Positions 1 through 59,822 of a stretch of 64,000 nucleotides of DNA are shown here, piece by piece (positions within the stretch are counted from its first letter, which is position 1; every line of letters begins with the position of its first letter). The notes beneath the pieces are model-generated. The model saw only the letters and a list, made by a program, of their open reading frames with translations. It did not search any database and had not been told where the DNA came from. This DNA comes from Pedobacter glucosidilyticus DSM 23534. Its GTDB lineage: Bacteria; Bacteroidota; Bacteroidia; Sphingobacteriales; Sphingobacteriaceae. Location: NCBI RefSeq assembly GCF_000425145.1, contig NZ_AULF01000018.1:1-64000 (forward strand). The letters run 5' to 3'. A program made the position numbers and the translations under genes.

Positions 1-381
1 ATCTGTTTTAATAATATTTAAATCACTTCCTAATGCAACTCCCGATTTTAAAACACAAGAAGCTGTAGCAATATCGATTTTAGATTCACCAGATGCAGGA
101 ATTATAACATCATTATCCTCGCTAAGTACTAATAAAGACTTTTGCAAATTCGTCTTCGATTTTATCTCTTTAATAACTTCACCATAATATGTATAAAGCT
201 CACCATATCTTATGCAATCGTTCATTCCATCTTCAGTAATATCACTTTTTGAAATACCTTTCCCTTTTGAAAATTTTGCAACCTCCCCCAACCTCTTAAC
301 CTCCCATGCCCCCTCAAAGCCAGGAAATCTTAAATTGGGAACATTAGCCACACTTTTACCTATTTTTTTTATATTGGTCAT
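1..381 (-). CDS. hsdS: Type I restriction-modification specificity subunit HsdS (N-terminal part, cut by window edge)
   Basis: An open frame runs from ATG at 379-381 to the left edge, giving the first 127 residues. After a short leader it has VPNLRFPGFEGAWEVKRLGEV, the usual opening of an HsdS target-recognition domain, followed by FSKGKGISKSD and a stretch ending in IIPASGESKID. HsdS supplies DNA sequence recognition to the HsdM methylase and HsdR nuclease. The rest of the gene, and probably hsdR, lie to the left. It is transcribed in the same direction as hsdM but separated from it by two unrelated genes and a 138-bp gap. The family is clear; the specificity cannot be read. Confidence 0.88.
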   Translation of the reverse strand, partial: MTNIKKIGKSVANVPNLRFPGFEGAWEVKRLGEVAKFSKGKGISKSDITEDGMNDCIRYGELYTYYGEVIKEIKSKTNLQKSLLVLSEDNDVIIPASGESKIDIATASCVLKSGVALGSDLNIIKTD

Positions 382-419
382 ACTACTATCTTCTTATGTA
401 ACATTAGGGATTGAATCTA

Positions 420-450
420 TTTGCATTTATATTTTTATTTTCTACCTTTG
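420..450 (+). promoter_or_regulatory. Bacteroidota-type promoter facing right, inside the hsd locus
   Basis: TTTG at 420-423 and TACCTTTG at 443-450 are separated by exactly 19 bases, matching the Bacteroidota consensus TTTG-N19-TAnnTTTG. It points opposite to the hsd genes. The predicted start of transcription is near 456. Confidence 0.55.
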
Positions 451-455
451 CACCA

Positions 456-536
456 GCTCAGTAACCATTCCTTCATTGGTTGTAAGTGTTAAAGGAGTAT
501 GAGAAGCCGTTTAGTTCCACTAAGCGGTTTTGGTTT
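456..536 (+). ncRNA. Candidate small RNA, antisense to the hsd transcript
   Basis: A promoter (420-450) and a terminator-like hairpin (504-530, followed by T-rich sequence) bracket about 80 bases on the plus strand. Inside is a second weak hairpin: AACCA at about 468 pairs with TGGTT at about 480. The only ORF in the transcript is 20 codons from ATG 499, one base after an AAAGGAG and so too close for normal initiation; it runs past the terminator. The RNA would lie opposite the 161-residue gene's 3' end and the hsdS leader. This is inference from signals; no known RNA family was recognised. Confidence 0.35.
504..536 (+). terminator. Intrinsic terminator-like hairpin, plus-strand orientation
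   Basis: Bases 504-515 pair with 519-530 in a 12-bp stem, including two G-T pairs, with a three-base loop TCC. TTTTGGTTTTT follows on the plus strand. On the minus strand the hairpin is followed by CTCATACTCC, which is not T-rich, so it should act mainly rightward. It overlaps the stop codon (520-522) of the minus-strand 161-residue gene. Confidence 0.55.
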
Positions 537-1005
537 TTATATACGCTTCATATTCCTTTAATAACTTTTTCTTCCTGTGTTCTTTTTCAATAAAATAAGC
601 GGTGATAAATAGATAGTAATCTTTTCTTTCAGTTAGTATCACGATATAATTTTCGGCTTCATTAAATAAAACAATTCGTTCGTCTTTTCCTCTTCTATTT
701 TTCCAAATGAGTATTTCTTCATGTTTAAAATTTCCGATAACAAACTTTGGAAAACGTATTCTCTCCATTCTTCTAAGATCAGGTTGTCTATTGTTCTCAT
801 CTTCTCCTTCATGTGTAATATGATAAAATGTACGATGCATTCCGTCCACCTCTGGATATTTTCTCACAGATACTTCTAATCCTTCAAAAACAGGTTGGCT
901 AACAATAAAATCCTGATAAAAAACTGAATAAATAGTTTTAAAATAAGATGGAAAATCACCTCCGAAATCATTGAAAGATATTAAATCCGGAAATACTAAA
1001 CTCAT
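520..1005 (-). CDS. Uncharacterised 161-residue protein embedded in the type I RM locus
   Basis: ATG at 1003-1005 overlaps the TGA of the upstream DUF3800 gene (1002-1004) in an ATGA arrangement, which suggests translational coupling, so I prefer it to a start at 1032. The sequence has two conserved-looking blocks: FYHITHEGEDENNRQPDLRR followed by MERIRFPKFVI, and WKNRRGKDERIVLF leading to YIVILTERKDYYLFITAY. The C-terminus is a basic helix (IEKEHRKKKLLKEYEAY). I recall similar unnamed proteins in cyanobacteria and other bacteria. The layout of one His, several Arg and a short beta-rich core would suit a small RelE/barnase-like RNase, but that is a guess. Its position between hsdM and hsdS suggests a defence-related or toxin-like accessory. 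Confidence 0.7.
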   Translation of the reverse strand: MSLVFPDLISFNDFGGDFPSYFKTIYSVFYQDFIVSQPVFEGLEVSVRKYPEVDGMHRTFYHITHEGEDENNRQPDLRRMERIRFPKFVIGNFKHEEILIWKNRRGKDERIVLFNEAENYIVILTERKDYYLFITAYFIEKEHRKKKLLKEYEAYIKTKTA

Positions 1006-1751
1006 ACAAAATATGGTTTCTGGGGTTCCCAAATAAAAATATTGAATTTTCGCTCCTTCAATAAAGTGGATTTTGTTAAAGAATATTTAGAACGGTGCTT
1101 AATAAGATTGACTAATTCGTTTTTAGCTTTACTTTCTGCTAATCCTCTATTCACATAAGCAGTAGCTCCTACTAATAAGTCGGTTAATTGCAAAATTTCC
1201 ACCTCATGAGACCTTACTTGCTGTACTTTTTTAATAATTTCCTTAGAGTAGTCATATTTATCATTCCTTAAAACTTGCTCGAGCTTATGTACTTTTTCTA
1301 TACTTCTGGTATCCTTAATATCTATATAAATGTGATGCGAATTTTCAGGATTTAAAATGGCTTTTAACATCCCAAAATACATTTTATAGTAAAAAGTATC
1401 ATGTGTATGATTGAACCTACCATAATCAATAGCAGATTTATTAGAGACAACTAATACCCGAAACTGCAAATCATCATCATCAAAAAAATAATTAATTACA
1501 TCTTTATAATACTCAATTTTTGATTTAGAAACTTTGTTCCACTTTAATTCATAATAAGTACGATTCTCCCTGTCATTCTTCTTATTTTTAGGGATAAGGT
1601 GGTGTTTAGTCTTGAAGCTATACAAACGTTCAAAAATTTCCTCCTTCTTTTCAATTGGGCAATAGACCGCTCCTATGACCATTACTGGCTCTTCGTCATT
1701 CTTCAGATGGCAGCTTTCATCGCAGTATATGTTAATTGTTGGCTTCTTCAT
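1002..1751 (-). CDS. DUF3800 family protein (putative RNase H-fold nuclease) between hsdM and hsdS
   Basis: The N-terminus INIYCDESCHL with the following VMVIGAVYCP is the DUF3800 signature: an acidic residue pair on the first strand of a predicted RNase H-like fold. A later YIDIKDTRS and the C-terminal EILQLTDLLVGA (about residues 189-200) supply more acidic positions, as expected of this family. ATG at 1749-1751 lies 5 bases after the hsdM stop and gives 249 residues. A TTG at 1758-1760 overlapping the hsdM stop would add three residues. DUF3800 proteins are common in mobile and defence loci, but their activity is mostly undetermined. The tight spacing implies co-transcription with hsdM. 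Confidence 0.8.
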   Translation of the reverse strand: MKKPTINIYCDESCHLKNDEEPVMVIGAVYCPIEKKEEIFERLYSFKTKHHLIPKNKKNDRENRTYYELKWNKVSKSKIEYYKDVINYFFDDDDLQFRVLVVSNKSAIDYGRFNHTHDTFYYKMYFGMLKAILNPENSHHIYIDIKDTRSIEKVHKLEQVLRNDKYDYSKEIIKKVQQVRSHEVEILQLTDLLVGATAYVNRGLAESKAKNELVNLIKHRSKYSLTKSTLLKERKFNIFIWEPQKPYFV

Positions 1752-1756
1752 AAAAA

Positions 1757-3316
1757 TCAAAAAACTAGGCCTAGTTCTTTCAGGTAAATATCAATTTCTT
1801 TATCAAGTTCAGCTCTTTTTGCCTCCAAAACCTTTATTTCTTGCATCACAGCATGAATATCAATTTCTTCTTGCTCCTCAAAAGTATCTACATACCTCGG
1901 GATGTTCAGGTTAAAATCATTTTCAATAACTTCCTTTAAAGTAGCTACATGGCTATATTTTTCAATAACCGTTCTATTACGGTAGGTATCAACAATTTTA
2001 TCGATATGCTCTTCACGTAAAACATTTTGGTTTTTTACCTTTTCAAAGTCTTTACTAGCATCTATAAATAAAATATCATCTGGTGTTTCTCTACACTTTT
2101 TAAATACCAAAATACAGGTTGGTATGCTTGTGCCATAGAAAATATTAGCAGGTAAACCAATAACAGCGTCTAAATAATTCTTTTGTTCTATTAAATACCT
2201 ACGAATATGTTGTTCTGCTGCCCCTCTAAATAAAACGCCATGTGGTAATACAATAGCCATTAAACCGTTCTCTGCCAAATGGTAAACCATGTGCTGCACA
2301 AAAGCAAAATCTGCTTTACTTACAGGCGCCAACTTTCCATATTGGCTAAAGCGGTCATCAGTTAAAAATAAAGGATTAGCGCTCCAATTTGCAGAAAATG
2401 GCGGATTTGCCACAATAGCCTCAAAGGGCATATCATTTAAATGCTGAGGGTGTTCTAAGGTATCTTCCTGCTTAATATCAAACTTCATGTAATGTACCCC
2501 ATGAAGAATCATGTTCATACGAGCAAGGTTATACGTGGTACGGTTCATCTCTTGCCCGTAAAAGTTATTTACATCCTTAACCTCTCTGGCAACACGTAAA
2601 AGTAAAGACCCCGAGCCACAAGTAGGGTCATAAACAGATTTTAATCTGTTTTTACCTGTTGTAACAATTTTGGCTAATATTTTTGATACTTCTTGTGGGG
2701 TATAAAATTCTCCTGCTTTTTTACCTGCCCCACTTGCAAATTGTCCAATCAGATACTCATAAGCATCACCTAATACATCTAATTCTGTATTTTCTAATCT
2801 AAAATCAATTTCATCAAGATGGACCAATACTTTTACGATGATAGCATTTCTAGCTTCGGCTGTTTTGCCCAACTTAGTGCTATTCAAATCCATGTCTTCA
2901 AAAAGATTATCAAAATCTTCCTCACTTTGAGTACCCATTGTACTTAATTGAATATTGATTAGAATTTTCTGTAAATCTTCAAGAATAAACGTATTGGTAT
3001 CGCTATTTCCTCTTTTTGCAATTTCGCTAAAAAGTTCAGATGGTTTTAGAAAATAACCTAAGGTTTCTAAAGCTTCTTCCCGTATAGCTTGTATATATTC
3101 TAAACCAATTTCTGTATTTTCTTTTATATCTCTGAACTGGATATGATCTTGCTTTAATATAGAATTAGCAAACATTTCCATTTTTTCTGCCAAGTACTTA
3201 TAGAAAATAAATCCCAAAATATAATCGCGAAACTCATCGGCATTCATTTTCCCTCTTAGGGTATTGGCTATATTCCAGAGCTGCTGCTCTAGCATCTTTT
3301 TGTGTTCCTCTGACAT
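1757..3316 (-). CDS. hsdM: Type I restriction-modification DNA methyltransferase subunit HsdM
   Basis: The 519-residue protein is full length for HsdM. An N-terminal helical HsdM_N domain (LWNIANTLRGKMNADEFRDY, from about residue 13) precedes the N6-adenine methylase core. That core contains AGEFYTPQEVSKIL (201-214), the SAM-binding DPTCGSGSLL (230-239) and the catalytic NPPF (304-307). The C-terminal segment (about 450-510) is the helical tail that packs on HsdS. It would methylate adenine in the HsdS-defined sequence and form the restriction complex with HsdR. It is the first gene of the locus, with no gene for about 400 bases upstream. Confidence 0.97.
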   Translation of the reverse strand: MSEEHKKMLEQQLWNIANTLRGKMNADEFRDYILGFIFYKYLAEKMEMFANSILKQDHIQFRDIKENTEIGLEYIQAIREEALETLGYFLKPSELFSEIAKRGNSDTNTFILEDLQKILINIQLSTMGTQSEEDFDNLFEDMDLNSTKLGKTAEARNAIIVKVLVHLDEIDFRLENTELDVLGDAYEYLIGQFASGAGKKAGEFYTPQEVSKILAKIVTTGKNRLKSVYDPTCGSGSLLLRVAREVKDVNNFYGQEMNRTTYNLARMNMILHGVHYMKFDIKQEDTLEHPQHLNDMPFEAIVANPPFSANWSANPLFLTDDRFSQYGKLAPVSKADFAFVQHMVYHLAENGLMAIVLPHGVLFRGAAEQHIRRYLIEQKNYLDAVIGLPANIFYGTSIPTCILVFKKCRETPDDILFIDASKDFEKVKNQNVLREEHIDKIVDTYRNRTVIEKYSHVATLKEVIENDFNLNIPRYVDTFEEQEEIDIHAVMQEIKVLEAKRAELDKEIDIYLKELGLVF

Positions 3317-3712
3317 TTGAATTTATTTAAAGAATTAAAGTTTTATAATCCTCAAAGTAGAATTTTCTAAAAATACAAAACTTAGCGAGTCTTAAAATAA
3401 AAACTTACTGATTTTATTTAGAACAAATAATTCTCAAGTATCATAAGAATTAATCTTCAATACCTCTATCCCCAAAATCAAGCAGTCCACTGCCATTCCC
3501 TACCATTAAAAGCTAAAACACTCCATTTTCATCATTATCAAAATCATAATATCGCCTCGACAAGCATTAGCAAAATTTAAAAGCTTGTTTTACTACCATT
3601 ATCATTTTTTTAGAGCGCTTCGAGAGCCAATTCACAGTTTATTAAAAATATTCAAACTATTGTAAATCAAATACTTGAAAAGTATTTTTGAATAATCAAA
3701 TTTTAGAAACTT
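3317..3712. other. Gene-free AT-rich stretch upstream of hsdM
   Basis: No ORF with coding character was found. On the minus strand a TTTTG about 16 bases before TACTTTG (3353-3359) is a weak match to a Bacteroidota promoter and could serve hsdM. The rest shows nothing recognisable. Confidence 0.4.
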
Positions 3713-3943
3713 ATGGAACAAAAATTTACAAGACTATTTATTTACATCGCTGACCTCATGAGAATTAGCGGTAAAAGCGAACGCACCTGTAGCAAAATGA
3801 TGAAAGATATCCGAAAGCAGTTTAAGCTACTCAAACATCAATCTGTAACTGTATTTCATGCCAGCGAGTTTTTTGGAATCCCTTTAGATCTCCTCAGACC
3901 GTACATCCTTTCCCTTACTTTCATCACAATTGCAAAGATGTAA
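3713..3943 (+). CDS. Small HTH-like protein, possibly with a damaged C-terminus
   Basis: The 76-residue ORF starts EQKFTRLFIYIADLMRISGKSERTCSKMMKDIRK and continues to VTVFHASEFFGIPLDLLRPYI. The phrase IADLMRISGKSERTC resembles a family of small Bacteroidota proteins that look like winged-helix or excisionase-type DNA-binding domains; this is from memory, not a search. After residue 61 the sequence (LSLTFITIAKM) no longer looks like the family, so a frameshift may have replaced the true end. It stands alone in a gene-poor stretch downstream of the RM locus, as mobile-element remnants often do. The product is uncertain. Confidence 0.55.
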   Translation: MEQKFTRLFIYIADLMRISGKSERTCSKMMKDIRKQFKLLKHQSVTVFHASEFFGIPLDLLRPYILSLTFITIAKM

Positions 3944-4467
3944 AACCTACGCTCGTCTGGTCTGCTGTTAACTTTAAAAAAAACGATGAGTTAACAGCAG
4001 AAAAAAGACGAAGATTAACTTCCCCAATCATCCCTTAAGAAAACTATCAAAATACACTAAGCCCCCTTACTTACCGCTAGCTTACAGCAACCTTACGGCT
4101 ACCTTACAGCTACAGCCCAGAAACTTTTTCTAAAAAAGTGCCCCTAAAGCCTAGAAACGAAGGCTCATTTTTAAACTTTACAATAAAAAAATACACTAAG
4201 CCTCCCCTAAAACACCTTTATTTTAAAAGCTAAACTTCTGGCAGATTAACGCTTCTCAAAAAAAACCTCATTACAAAAAAGCTGAAAAACCACGGATAAC
4301 TAAAAAATGTCATAACCGCTCAAAAACACCAAAAACCTGCAAATACAAGCCATAAAACGCAATGTATTAGGGATTTACATAATACCTCTTTATGTTTGCA
4401 TCACGCATCGCTTACCGGTAAATAAAGATGTAAAAACAGAGTAATTAATTTTTAAAATTCAACAATT
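3944..4467 (+). other. Non-coding stretch with repeats before the 187-residue gene
   Basis: No credible ORF lies here. It holds the 11-bp-period array at 4071-4114 and a 15-bp direct repeat AAAATACACTAAGCC at 4049-4063 and 4188-4202, which flanks that array. At 4391-4398 TATGTTTG matches the -7 box of a Bacteroidota promoter and could start the downstream gene's transcript, although no good TTTG is present 19 bases upstream. Confidence 0.5.
4071..4114 (+). repeat. 11-bp tandem repeat, 4 degenerate units (consensus TTACAGCAACC)
   Basis: Consecutive 11-mers read TTACCGCTAGC, TTACAGCAACC, TTACGGCTACC and TTACAGCTACA. The period is close to one helical turn, so every unit presents the same face of the DNA. 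It is not a multiple of three and no ORF spans it. The same consensus recurs at 58687-58741. Confidence 0.75.
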
Positions 4468-5031
4468 ATGAAAGTAATAGAAAATGATTTAGTCATGGGC
4501 TCAAGTGGTAAAATTGGTAAGATGCTTGTATTTCGTCAAGTAGCAGGTAAAACAATTATCGCCAAAAGAGGCATAAGAACTGCTCCTTTTACAGAAAACC
4601 AAGAAGCGATAAAAGAGCGCTTTAAAGAAGCTACGCTTTATGCCAAAGCAGTTACAAACGACCCCATACGTAAACAATGGTATGAAGCATTGGTAAAACC
4701 CGGACAAAGTGCCTATAATTTGGCTTTAGCAGATTTCTGTAAATCTCCAACGATAAAGAAAATAACCTTAACAGCCTATAATGGCCAAATCGGTAATGAA
4801 ATCTTAATCAGAGCTGTAGACAATTTTAGCGTAGAAACAGTGCAAATAGAACTGGTGGATACCAACGGAAATAACATAGAGACCGGCGTAGCTTTATTAC
4901 AGGAAAACGGACTTGATTGGATTTATACCGTTACAGCAAATAACCCTACCCTACTAGGTACTACAATAAGAGTAACAGCTACAGACTTACCGGGTAACCA
5001 AACGATAAAAGAAGAAGTAATTCAGGTTTAA
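4468..5031 (+). CDS. Conserved-looking hypothetical protein, 187 residues
   Basis: The product has no signal peptide or membrane segment. Residues 1-40 hold a glycine-rich segment (GSSGKIGKMLVFRQVAGKTI), then a charged helical part rich in Lys and Glu (about 44-72). Residues 95-187 look like a beta-sandwich (ITLTAYNGQIGNEILIRAVDNF ... VTATDLPGNQTIKEEVIQV). The layout recalls the Bacteroidota DUF6266-type proteins, with an SGK(I/V)G motif, a TENQ-like motif, a helix and an Ig-like tail, but I cannot assign the family with confidence. It is monocistronic and ends at a bidirectional terminator (5118-5149). The function is unknown. Confidence 0.7.
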   Translation: MKVIENDLVMGSSGKIGKMLVFRQVAGKTIIAKRGIRTAPFTENQEAIKERFKEATLYAKAVTNDPIRKQWYEALVKPGQSAYNLALADFCKSPTIKKITLTAYNGQIGNEILIRAVDNFSVETVQIELVDTNGNNIETGVALLQENGLDWIYTVTANNPTLLGTTIRVTATDLPGNQTIKEEVIQV

Positions 5032-5117
5032 AGCATTCTTTCAACAAACGACAGTAAAGGACATTGCTAAGCTTTCTATCAGCATTACAATATACTTTAT
5101 CTTTATCGAGCTAAAAT

Positions 5118-49794: not shown

Positions 49795-49822
49795 TTAATT
49801 TCTAACTCTCTAAAATTTTAAC

Positions 49823-49939
49823 CCTTATTCTTTGTTCCCTAATCCTTATTCTTTGTTCCTTGATCCTTATTCTTTGTTCCTTGATCCTTATTCTTTGTTC
49901 CTTGATCCTTATTCTTTATTCCCTAATCTTTATTCTCCC
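49823..49939. repeat. 21-bp tandem repeat array between mraY and murD
   Basis: Five full copies of a 21-base unit (CCTTATTCTTTGTTCCTTGAT, with minor variation in the first and last) occupy 49823-49927, then a partial copy to 49939. It fills the 151-base gap between the two genes. The unit is a multiple of three, but on the minus strand it is untranslated in the normal gene order. Copy number is likely to vary between strains. Confidence 0.9.
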
Positions 49940-57454: not shown

Positions 57455-58474
57455 ATGAAAGTAATTTTATCTATTGATGGTGGAGGCATTAAAGGCATTA
57501 TACCGGGAATGATTTTAGTGAGCCTAGAAGAAAGATTAAAAAAAAAGACCCATAACCCTGAAGCATCTATAGTAGAATATTTTGATTTCTTTGCAGGCAC
57601 CAGTACCGGCGGAATATTAACCGGCTTATTGCTTTGCCCTTCTGAAGCAGACCCAACAAAACCTAAATTTAGCGCCAAAGAAGCTTTAGATCTTTATATC
57701 AAACATGGCGCAGAGATTTTCCAAAACAAAGGCTTTAAAAAAATATTAGCACAAATTGGCTGGGTAACCGAAAAATATAATAATATAGCTTGGGAGAAAA
57801 TTTTAAAAGATTACTTTGGTAATGTTAAGCTAAGTCAGCTGATAAAACCTTGTATCATTACAGCTTATAATATAGAACTTAGAAAAGCACATTTTTTCAG
57901 GCAAAAAACAGCTATAGAAAGAGGTGATAGCAGAGATTTTTATTTAAGAGATGTTTGTAGAGCTACATCAGCAGCTCCAACCTTTTTTAGCGTTGCCGAA
58001 ATTTATTCATTAGCAGGCGTAAGATATCCATTATTGGATGGTGGTGTTTTTGCAACCAACCCAACCATGAGTGCCTTTGTTGAAATACAAAAAACACCTG
58101 AGAAAGAGATTCCAAAAAACATCCATATTTTATCTTTAGGAACTGGGGTTTCTAAAAAATCTTATGATAGCGATGAGCTAAGTCAGACAAAAGCTCTATT
58201 TGTAGTGCCAGCATTATTAGATATGATGATGAGCGGTGCTAGCGAAACCAGCCATTTTTATATGATGCAGATTTTTTCTTTTTTAGGTATCTCCAATCAA
58301 TACATCAGGCTAGAGCCTAAAGACTTGCAAAGTGTTGATGAAAGAATGGATGCCGCCACACCTAAAAACATTAAAAAGCTAATGGCTTTGGGCGACAGAT
58401 TAATTAGCGAGCGAAATTTATTGTTAGACCGTATTGCAGATACTTTAATAAAACTTAAAGAAGAAGCTAATTAA
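57455..58474 (+). CDS. Patatin-like phospholipase
   Basis: The 339-residue cytosolic protein begins ILSIDGGGIKGIIPGMIL with the oxyanion motif GGGIKG (9-14). The nucleophile elbow GTSTGG follows with Ser50, and the catalytic Asp is at about 195 in LLDGGVFATNP: the Ser-Asp dyad of patatins. It should hydrolyse acyl chains from membrane lipids. The overall form resembles CapV-type phospholipases, but no cyclic-nucleotide synthase or other CBASS gene is nearby, so a metabolic role is the default reading. Confidence 0.93.
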   Translation: MKVILSIDGGGIKGIIPGMILVSLEERLKKKTHNPEASIVEYFDFFAGTSTGGILTGLLLCPSEADPTKPKFSAKEALDLYIKHGAEIFQNKGFKKILAQIGWVTEKYNNIAWEKILKDYFGNVKLSQLIKPCIITAYNIELRKAHFFRQKTAIERGDSRDFYLRDVCRATSAAPTFFSVAEIYSLAGVRYPLLDGGVFATNPTMSAFVEIQKTPEKEIPKNIHILSLGTGVSKKSYDSDELSQTKALFVVPALLDMMMSGASETSHFYMMQIFSFLGISNQYIRLEPKDLQSVDERMDAATPKNIKKLMALGDRLISERNLLLDRIADTLIKLKEEAN

Positions 58475-58855
58475 AGCCATTTCATATAAATTTCGTCTTT
58501 AAAATAGATATTTTTTTATTAGATGTCTAGTCGAATTTCAACCCTATCTATGAGTTTTGTCTAGCAGTATTTTTATGATTTTTTGCTAAAAAATTATCGA
58601 ATAACATATTATTTTTATAGCTTTAGCATTGTAAATGTTTTTAACAATTTACCATCACCAACTTCTTCAACCAAATCTAGGTTTATATACAGCAAGGTTA
58701 TAGCAACCTTACAGCAACTTTATAGCAACCTTATAGCAAGTTTTAAATATAAGTAGACTATAGCTTAAGTATAAGATAATTATACTTCTTTATAAAATCA
58801 AGGTGCTTTTAATAAACCAGACAGTATTTAAAACTCGGTTATAACAAACTAAAAG
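58475..58855. other. Gene-free stretch between two convergent genes
   Basis: About 380 AT-rich bases between the patatin and pseudouridine synthase genes. It holds the 11-bp array at 58687-58741. No ORF or clear terminator was seen. Confidence 0.5.
58687..58741 (+). repeat. 11-bp tandem repeat, 5 units (consensus TTATAGCAACC)
   Basis: Consecutive 11-mers are ATACAGCAAGG, TTATAGCAACC, TTACAGCAACT, TTATAGCAACC and TTATAGCAAGT. The period and consensus match the array at 4071-4114. It lies in a convergent intergenic region. Confidence 0.85.
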
Positions 58856-59572
58856 TTATTTATTAAAACTTTCAAACTTATCCCAAAAACCATCTTTGGG
58901 TAAAGGAGCAAAAATATCTACGGGTTCATTTTTTACCGGATGTATAAATTGCAACCTTCTGGCATGTAAACAAATGCTCTTTTTACGACTGCCACGTGGG
59001 TAGCCATATTTGTTATCGCCTACAATGGGGCTACCTAGCGTAGCTAATTGCACCCTTATTTGATGAGGCCTGCCAGTAATAGGATCCACTTCAATTAAAT
59101 AGTAACCATCCAGAAAACCTAATACCTTAAAGTTCAATTCGGCTCTTTGGCTACCTTTAACTTCGTGGTCATAAGCTGTAGTAATATTTTTTTTAGGATT
59201 TTTTACTAGCCAATGAACCAAAGTACCTTCCATTTTACTAGGTTTTTGCCTAACCACAGCCCAATAAGTTTTATGCATTTGCCGCTCCTTAAACATTTTA
59301 TTGATACGATCTAATGCTTTAGAAGTCTTTGCGAACAGTATGACTCCACTTACCGGCCTATCTAAACGATGCACAACGCCTAAAAAAGCCCCATTAGGTT
59401 TCTGATATTTTTCGGCAATATATTTCTTTACCATATCATCTAAAGACAAATCTCCGGTATCATCAACCTGAACAATCCATCCAGCTTTTTTATAAATAGC
59501 AATAAGATGATTATCCTCGTAAAGAACATCCTTATCTGTAACTGTATAATTTAAATCCGGGTATTCAGACAT
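58856..59572 (-). CDS. RluA family RNA pseudouridine synthase
   Basis: The 238-residue protein has the catalytic block GVVHRLDRPVSGVILFAKTS (Asp71) and later PITGRPHQIRVQLATLGSP and GDNKYGYP, typical of the RluA/RluC/RluD group. It has no N-terminal S4 domain, so it resembles single-domain members such as RluA or TruC that act on tRNA or 23S rRNA. The exact target uridine cannot be told. It is transcribed alone; the short repeats upstream of its start separate it from panB. Confidence 0.93.
   Translation of the reverse strand: MSEYPDLNYTVTDKDVLYEDNHLIAIYKKAGWIVQVDDTGDLSLDDMVKKYIAEKYQKPNGAFLGVVHRLDRPVSGVILFAKTSKALDRINKMFKERQMHKTYWAVVRQKPSKMEGTLVHWLVKNPKKNITTAYDHEVKGSQRAELNFKVLGFLDGYYLIEVDPITGRPHQIRVQLATLGSPIVGDNKYGYPRGSRKKSICLHARRLQFIHPVKNEPVDIFAPLPKDGFWDKFESFNK

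Positions 59573-59720: not shown

Positions 59721-59822
<102 letters not shown>

Follow-up and report, generated by a model that had tools for sequence, protein, structure and literature searches.

Phased 11-bp repeat arrays in two sister species of Pedobacter: possible recombinase arm-type sites on small modules with paired cores

A small family of arrays, built from 11-bp units in exact helical phase, is present in the genome of Pedobacter glucosidilyticus DSM 23534 and is recorded so far from two sister species. One of its two branches lies within a gene-less module of about 150 bp that has the same core, in direct orientation, at both ends. From the phase, copies, anatomy, restricted distribution and low substitution of the arrays we infer protein binding, a recombinase as the binder and mobility by an att-like route. 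Our preferred reading, to which we give a probability of roughly 0.38, is that the arrays are arm-type sites of a recombinase on small non-autonomous att-like modules. Each unit would then be one putative binding site for a DNA-binding protein, and four or five units in register would allow protomers to stack along one face of the DNA. Within the lineage of the two species the modules would have spread by way of inserted DNA, and the recombinase would act in trans or have since been lost.

The window, a stretch of 64,000 nucleotides, belongs to C15, one of the 62 contigs that make up a 4.02-Mb draft genome, and holds two of the arrays (Table 1). On the forward strand the first consists of the units TTACCGCTAGC, TTACAGCAACC, TTACGGCTACC and TTACAGCTACA, and the second of ATACAGCAAGG, TTATAGCAACC, TTACAGCAACT, TTATAGCAACC and TTATAGCAAGT. 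Tandem Repeats Finder returned both at period 11 without indels, and no ORF of at least 80 aa overlaps either of them; a 76-aa ORF, under that limit, lies near the array at 4071. Each array matches in 27 of 33 columns at lag 11, as compared with a best score of 23 in 100 dinucleotide shuffles, and the first-pass annotation was thus right to describe four and five intergenic units in an exact 11-bp register that chance does not reproduce. At lags 9, 10, 12 and 13 the best scores of the real window were 23, 21, 27 and 23, so that another repeat in the window, at lag 12, equals the arrays. Single units are barely enriched in the window, with 32 matches at up to two mismatches against 20.1 expected, a number that one shuffle in 100 also reaches.

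Table 1. Positions in the window of the two arrays and of the features associated with them
Feature	Position	Strand	Basis or remark
Whole module of family A, 150 bp (core, spacer of 87 bp, array, core)	4051..4200	-	BLAST and length comparison
Core copy CTTAGTGTATT adjoining the array	4051..4061	-	copies compared
Further copy of the core CTTAGTGTATT, oriented alike and 139 bp from the first	4190..4200	-	copies compared
Array of four 11-bp units, family A	4071..4114	+	Tandem Repeats Finder, unit counts, pair search
Array of five 11-bp units, family B	58687..58741	+	Tandem Repeats Finder, pair search
TATA-rich tail after the B array	58742..58770	+	partly common to other B copies, aligned by eye
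Spacer holding the B array	58483..58856	not applicable	0-10 bp in two relatives

Allowing at most two mismatches, a genome-wide search for pairs of adjacent units gave 25 matches at eight places, as opposed to none for a reversed-pattern control. Seven of the places are arrays of four to five units, and the eighth (C6:39394) is a single pair of poor units, in coding DNA as judged by eye. The scan proposed in the first-pass annotation therefore found more than the original two copies; the single consensus that it had assigned to both window arrays resolves into two related families, A with consensus TTACRGCWACC and B with consensus TTATAGCAACC. Family A has four copies (on C3, C4 and C13 and at window position 4071), and family B has three (on C13 and C24 and at window position 58687), with five units apiece and a TATA-rich tail. 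In a 587-kb sample, picked to take in all known array sites and including 400 kb of background, eight arrays of period 11 with at least 2.8 copies were found, all eight outside ORFs of at least 80 aa: the seven A and B arrays and a related array on C10. The 400-kb background held none of them. Periods 7 and 8 are commoner in the same 587 kb (24 and 18 arrays), so that arrays of period 11 are not the genome's leading class of repeat. The C10 array, CTAACAGGGTA (L210:12667-12704), has three units, and its counterpart in the sister species (G010:C34, L211 near 8240) has five; its layout is similar to that of family B, and the tail in the sister species has CTACCCTATA in common with the B copy on C24.

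Several other repeats were seen alongside the arrays. About five further 11-bp units (CCACSTNTANN by eye) lie outside ORFs on C4 (L227:16250-16301), followed by a CTTCGG-rich stretch, and a profile scan gave no match to the integrase profile PF00589 on that contig. Two copies of another element (L224:6454 and L230:8213) combine ACACATAGATC at an 11-bp period with 8-bp arrays of the CTAACAAA type, and resemble in style the (CCAACTAA)12.6 array at window positions 59721-59821. A 21-bp tandem array of TTAATCCTTATTCTTTGTTCC in 5.7 copies lies between two ORFs at window positions 49818-49936. Adjoining the C3 copy of family A (L074:4783-5021) is a highly repeated sequence, GGCTTCGACTCCGCTCAGCCTGACA, to which several genomes of the genus have partial matches by the tens.

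The anatomy of family A is strikingly regular. BLAST with the C3 copy recovered four near-full-length copies (itself, then 82, 81 and 77% identity), and detectable homology among them stops within 14 bp of two direct CTTAGTGTATT cores, which stand at both ends in all four. The modules are 150, 149, 150 and 150 bp long, with cores 138-139 bp apart in every case and the array 7-9 bp from one of them. The array and its adjacent core are 90-98% identical, whereas the part of about 87 bp between the first core and the array has drifted to 63-76% pairwise identity; because the cores stay constant while this part has diverged, the ends are fixed in sequence and distance around a drifting middle. Two identical direct cores with an array near one of them would most resemble the core-plus-arm attachment region of a tyrosine recombinase. 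No comparable core pair was recognised by eye for family B. The four modules occupy unrelated sites, and on C4 the preceding gene shares its final bases, stop codon among them, with the first core, so that the module is not strictly intergenic at every site even though the array itself is. Module boundaries are putative; inspection by eye of the 12-14 bp that flank the cores on the outside showed no short target duplication.

Two other identities for the module were considered and set aside. A structured RNA seems less likely, given that the window has no Rfam match and that the four A copies fold weakly: read with the core first, their z-scores against base-pair shuffles were -1.5, -2.1, -0.3 and -2.2, and the opposite strand gave -0.6 to +1.1. 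The module also does not form the end of a restriction-modification island, which starts near window position 3471, about 580 bp from it. This island, at approximately 1-3471, carries type I restriction-modification genes (hsdM at 1757-3316), and the sister species has other genes there.

Among 200 genomes, arrays were found with up to one mismatch in two, the present genome and its sister species of the same genus (G010); the scan overlooked a B array in G010, and absence elsewhere holds at that stringency. The first-pass annotation would have been refuted by two copies only and none in relatives; more copies exist, and arrays were found in a single relative. Aligned loci of the sister species are about 95-99% identical to ours over most of their length. 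It carries family A at the C4, C13 and C15 sites and a further B copy with four units, and lacks A at the C3 site, where its spacer is about 57 bp as compared with 838 bp in our genome, a rough comparison since the transporter gene flanking the spacer is strongly diverged there. Two further relatives (G012 and G013) lack A on C4 (19 bp versus about 286 bp) and B on C24 (74-80 bp versus about 380 bp). They also lack the approximately 370 bp in which the B array of the window sits, their matches abutting at that site (query 3-883 and 1258-1801 in one, 3-867 and 1252-1801 in the other). At E 1e-5, window positions 3300-5040 find no match in 16 of 18 genomes of the genus. Because relatives have short spacers at several sites, the arrays ride on DNA that was gained in, or kept only by, this lineage, and they seem to be carried on inserted DNA. 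At the empty C3 and C4 sites no single clean core was found, which speaks somewhat against the att-like reading, although the missing DNA there exceeds the module; the boundaries of any movement would be putative.

Beyond the genus, genomes from 84,980 species were scanned for a pair of adjacent units, which gave nine stretches, three of which are A modules of P. glucosidilyticus UBA7667. Neither a 181-bp A element nor a 44-bp B array had any match among plasmids or phages, and an origin from either was set aside on that basis. For a 33-bp A consensus, plasmids gave nothing and phages 21 records, with E values of 0.3-4 among those listed; of three Streptococcus satellite-phage records examined, one has its match about 450 bp from an integrase start. 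Among viral contigs, one GC-rich contig and one phage with a different 11-bp array were matched, and both are presumed unrelated. A full-text search on the unit strings, on arm sites and on Bacteroidetes repeats returned no description of these arrays among the matches listed.

The same distribution bears on the chromosome-organisation site that the first-pass annotation had offered as one option. Taken more widely, such a family of sites would serve to organise or segregate the chromosome and would be bound by a nucleoid protein or one that resembles ParR. The helical phase and the spread over several contigs would suit such a role, as would the orientation of the units, whose TTAYAG strand is the one with negative local GC skew in six of the seven A and B arrays. 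Arrays of 11-bp direct repeats are also known from parC of plasmid R1, of which ParR is described as needing at least two (PMC9426499). The R1 repeats, however, differ from ours, which occupy several chromosomal sites and have no parMR-type gene among the scanned neighbours. The orientation bias is only a hint, being weak and read from positions on draft contigs, with the seventh array near zero and the C10 array opposite. Moreover, only seven copies were found in 4 Mb, 198 of the 200 genomes have no match at one mismatch, and arrays are present or absent between close relatives, apparently on inserted DNA. The proposal is not borne out by these observations, and we regard it as very unlikely.

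Constraint on the arrays is most visible between the two sister species. In six orthologous spacers, which hold five A and B arrays and the C10 array (the sister species lacks counterparts of A on C3 and of B on C13), the arrays differ at one of 271 positions and the remainder at 127 of 2651 (Fisher p 7e-5), a comparison to be read with the facts that the arrays are richer in G+C than the spacers, that spacer rates vary widely and that the arrays were selected as intact in one genome. Summed by hand per spacer, about 12 array substitutions would be expected, as opposed to the one observed. Both window arrays are unchanged in the sister species, the A array with no substitutions and the B array over all 55 bp; the TATA-rich tail of the latter has diverged more than the array itself. 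Within the A modules, the cores have 0 substitutions in 77 positions and the other parts 8 in 241. Where array length differs between the species it does so by whole units, 11 bp in B on C24 and 22 bp on C10. Degeneracy between units had been taken as an argument against slippage, which is partly right, but one unit has been gained or lost at C24 and two at C10. The proposal of a cooperative protein-binding array fares better, as the 11-bp phase, the low substitution and the constant core spacing of family A are all consistent with it; binding itself would be a prediction from sequence.

The low array substitution speaks for present use by the host or by a recombinase. It also suggests a point against the att-like reading, because constraint on each single copy is not expected of mobile-element relics. 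In a quite unlikely variant, the A modules would be gene-less paired-core elements of a new kind, former recombination sites that selection holds as nucleoprotein loops of fixed spacing (139 bp), with the array specificity diversified among A, B and C10. Arrays better conserved than their flanks also count against a non-autonomous repeat that is neutral and has no present function, akin to a MITE or REP element that contains a minisatellite, although the copies are dispersed between genes, are present or absent between relatives, and gain and lose whole units. The nearest element that we found described in the phylum is BrickBuilt of Porphyromonas gingivalis, reported as a dispersed intergenic MITE with an internal minisatellite of varying unit number (PMC4596501). 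BrickBuilt is, however, described with a 23-nt unit and terminal inverted repeats, in contrast to the 11-bp unit and terminal direct cores seen here; family A lacks terminal inverted repeats, its two ends agreeing at 8-10 of 30 positions, and its core spacing is constant despite the diverged spacer. A neutral repeat is therefore a rather unlikely explanation.

Present use by the host could mean operator arrays of a host regulator, either of the OmpR/PhoB kind with head-to-tail 11-bp boxes or of another type. We consider this unlikely, and nonetheless a serious rival to the att-like reading. The constraint just described counts in its favour, as does the likeness of the unit start TTAYA to the Bacillus PhoP box. 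The PHO boxes of Streptomyces coelicolor are described as 11-bp direct repeats (PMC9019756), head-to-tail like the units here. Unlike those boxes, the A arrays lie within a 150-bp module, and no phosphate gene or shared function is present among the neighbours scanned, which are MFS/LacI, AAA_28/CMD, Rrf2/TonB receptor, peptidase S46/unknown, Mg chelatase/DUF4175, patatin/pseudouridine synthase and hsdM/unknown. (The patatin-like protein, at window positions 57455-58474, matches a CBASS phospholipase model below cut-off, with 154.9 versus 200 bits.) BLASTP likewise found no gene common to two array neighbourhoods. The eight arrays lie between genes of mixed orientation (three convergent, three divergent and two co-directional pairs of ORFs of at least 80 aa), so that a promoter function is not favoured. 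The occurrence in two species only, at up to one mismatch in 200 genomes, also counts against a host regulator.

The att-like reading draws on what is known of tyrosine recombinases. Arm sites are not expected for recombinases of the XerA or integron-integrase type. 
This weighs against the att-like reading at C10, whose recombinase gene resembles that type, below the cut-offs of the respective models. The gene lies 366 bp downstream of the C10 array and is apparently truncated in the sister species; as the array was found by a search near integrase genes, its location beside a recombinase is not independent evidence. Six PF00589 matches (five over the cut-off) are present in the genome, on C1, C6 (two), C10, C13 and C25. 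The profile scan found none on C3, C4, C15 or C24, the one on C13 is below the cut-off and at least 29 kb from the arrays, and no integrase is among the immediate neighbours scanned of the A and B arrays. A tRNA-borne att site in the window was set aside, as there is no tRNA gene in the window, nor any in six 10-kb stretches around other arrays and C2. The missing tRNA genes and the absence of integrases near the arrays both count against the att-like reading.

Arm-binding domains are described as frequent in tyrosine recombinases of mobile elements, including the CTnDOT group of Bacteroidetes (PMC8138268). In oenophages, four to six direct repeats, each about 10 bp long, are reported on the attP arms and regarded as putative sites of arm binding (PMC8074189). 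In our modules, as in such attP regions, a core is accompanied by several direct repeats about 10-12 bp long, at what would be the end of an integrative element. Unlike the attP regions, the modules have neither an integrase gene nor a tRNA target; their four to five units adjoin one another, and two full cores stand 138-139 bp apart in a gene-less module.

Integrase genes elsewhere offer a parallel. Around the integrase stop, direct repeats at lag 11, 12 or 13 were found in 12 of 17 homologous loci, among which Streptomyces, Deinococcus and Arthrobacter each contribute two near relatives. The 17 are what is left of 19 loci, taken out of 50 listed, once L202 and L241, whose records stop at the integrase, were excluded. 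By lag the counts are 6, 6 and 2, with two loci counted twice, versus 0.12, 0.13 and 0.22 (about 0.5 in total) expected from 60 shuffles per locus. The letters of these repeats differ from the A and B units. Nothing like a pair of GGTWGCYRTAA units was found in the 11 of 19 integrase loci scored or in ten loci of our genome and the sister species (best 14-16 of 22 in both). Lag-11 repeats of at least 15/18 occur at two of the six PF00589 loci of our genome and one of four in the sister species, and five such segments occur in the 400-kb background. In our genome the start of a phage-type integrase gene (C6:105042) carries AAATGGTGTGC, repeated 2.4 times. With tblastn, this integrase matched 39 phage records and the C10 recombinase at least 5000 plasmid records; among viral contigs, neither the repeats of these two integrases nor relatives of the enzymes were found.

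Two of the six unit-pair stretches outside Pedobacter, both from Anaerolineales (L080 and L083), lie between the 3' end of a PF00589 integrase gene and the 3' end of a tRNA gene, and the L080 integrase has two distant relatives among viral contigs. In a third (L084, Gallionella) a tRNA-Glu gene lies at 93 bp from the unit pair, and neither of the two ORFs scanned was recognised as an integrase; no tRNA was found near the pair in L082, L085 or L087. Since by our own estimate about two chance matches are expected in the whole scan, and the two Anaerolineales matches are probably one family, their support is one of analogy and not of descent. As nothing like the unit pair was found at the integrase loci scored above, the match may be a coincidence spread within one integrase family.

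If the arrays are arm sites on gene-less 150-bp modules, these would be very small integrative elements, att sites that spread without an enzyme of their own. If they are host sites, a few phased arrays would give an easy handle on a DNA-binding protein of the Bacteroidota. Either way the array would serve as a clean bait, for which the sister species supply natural variants in unit number.
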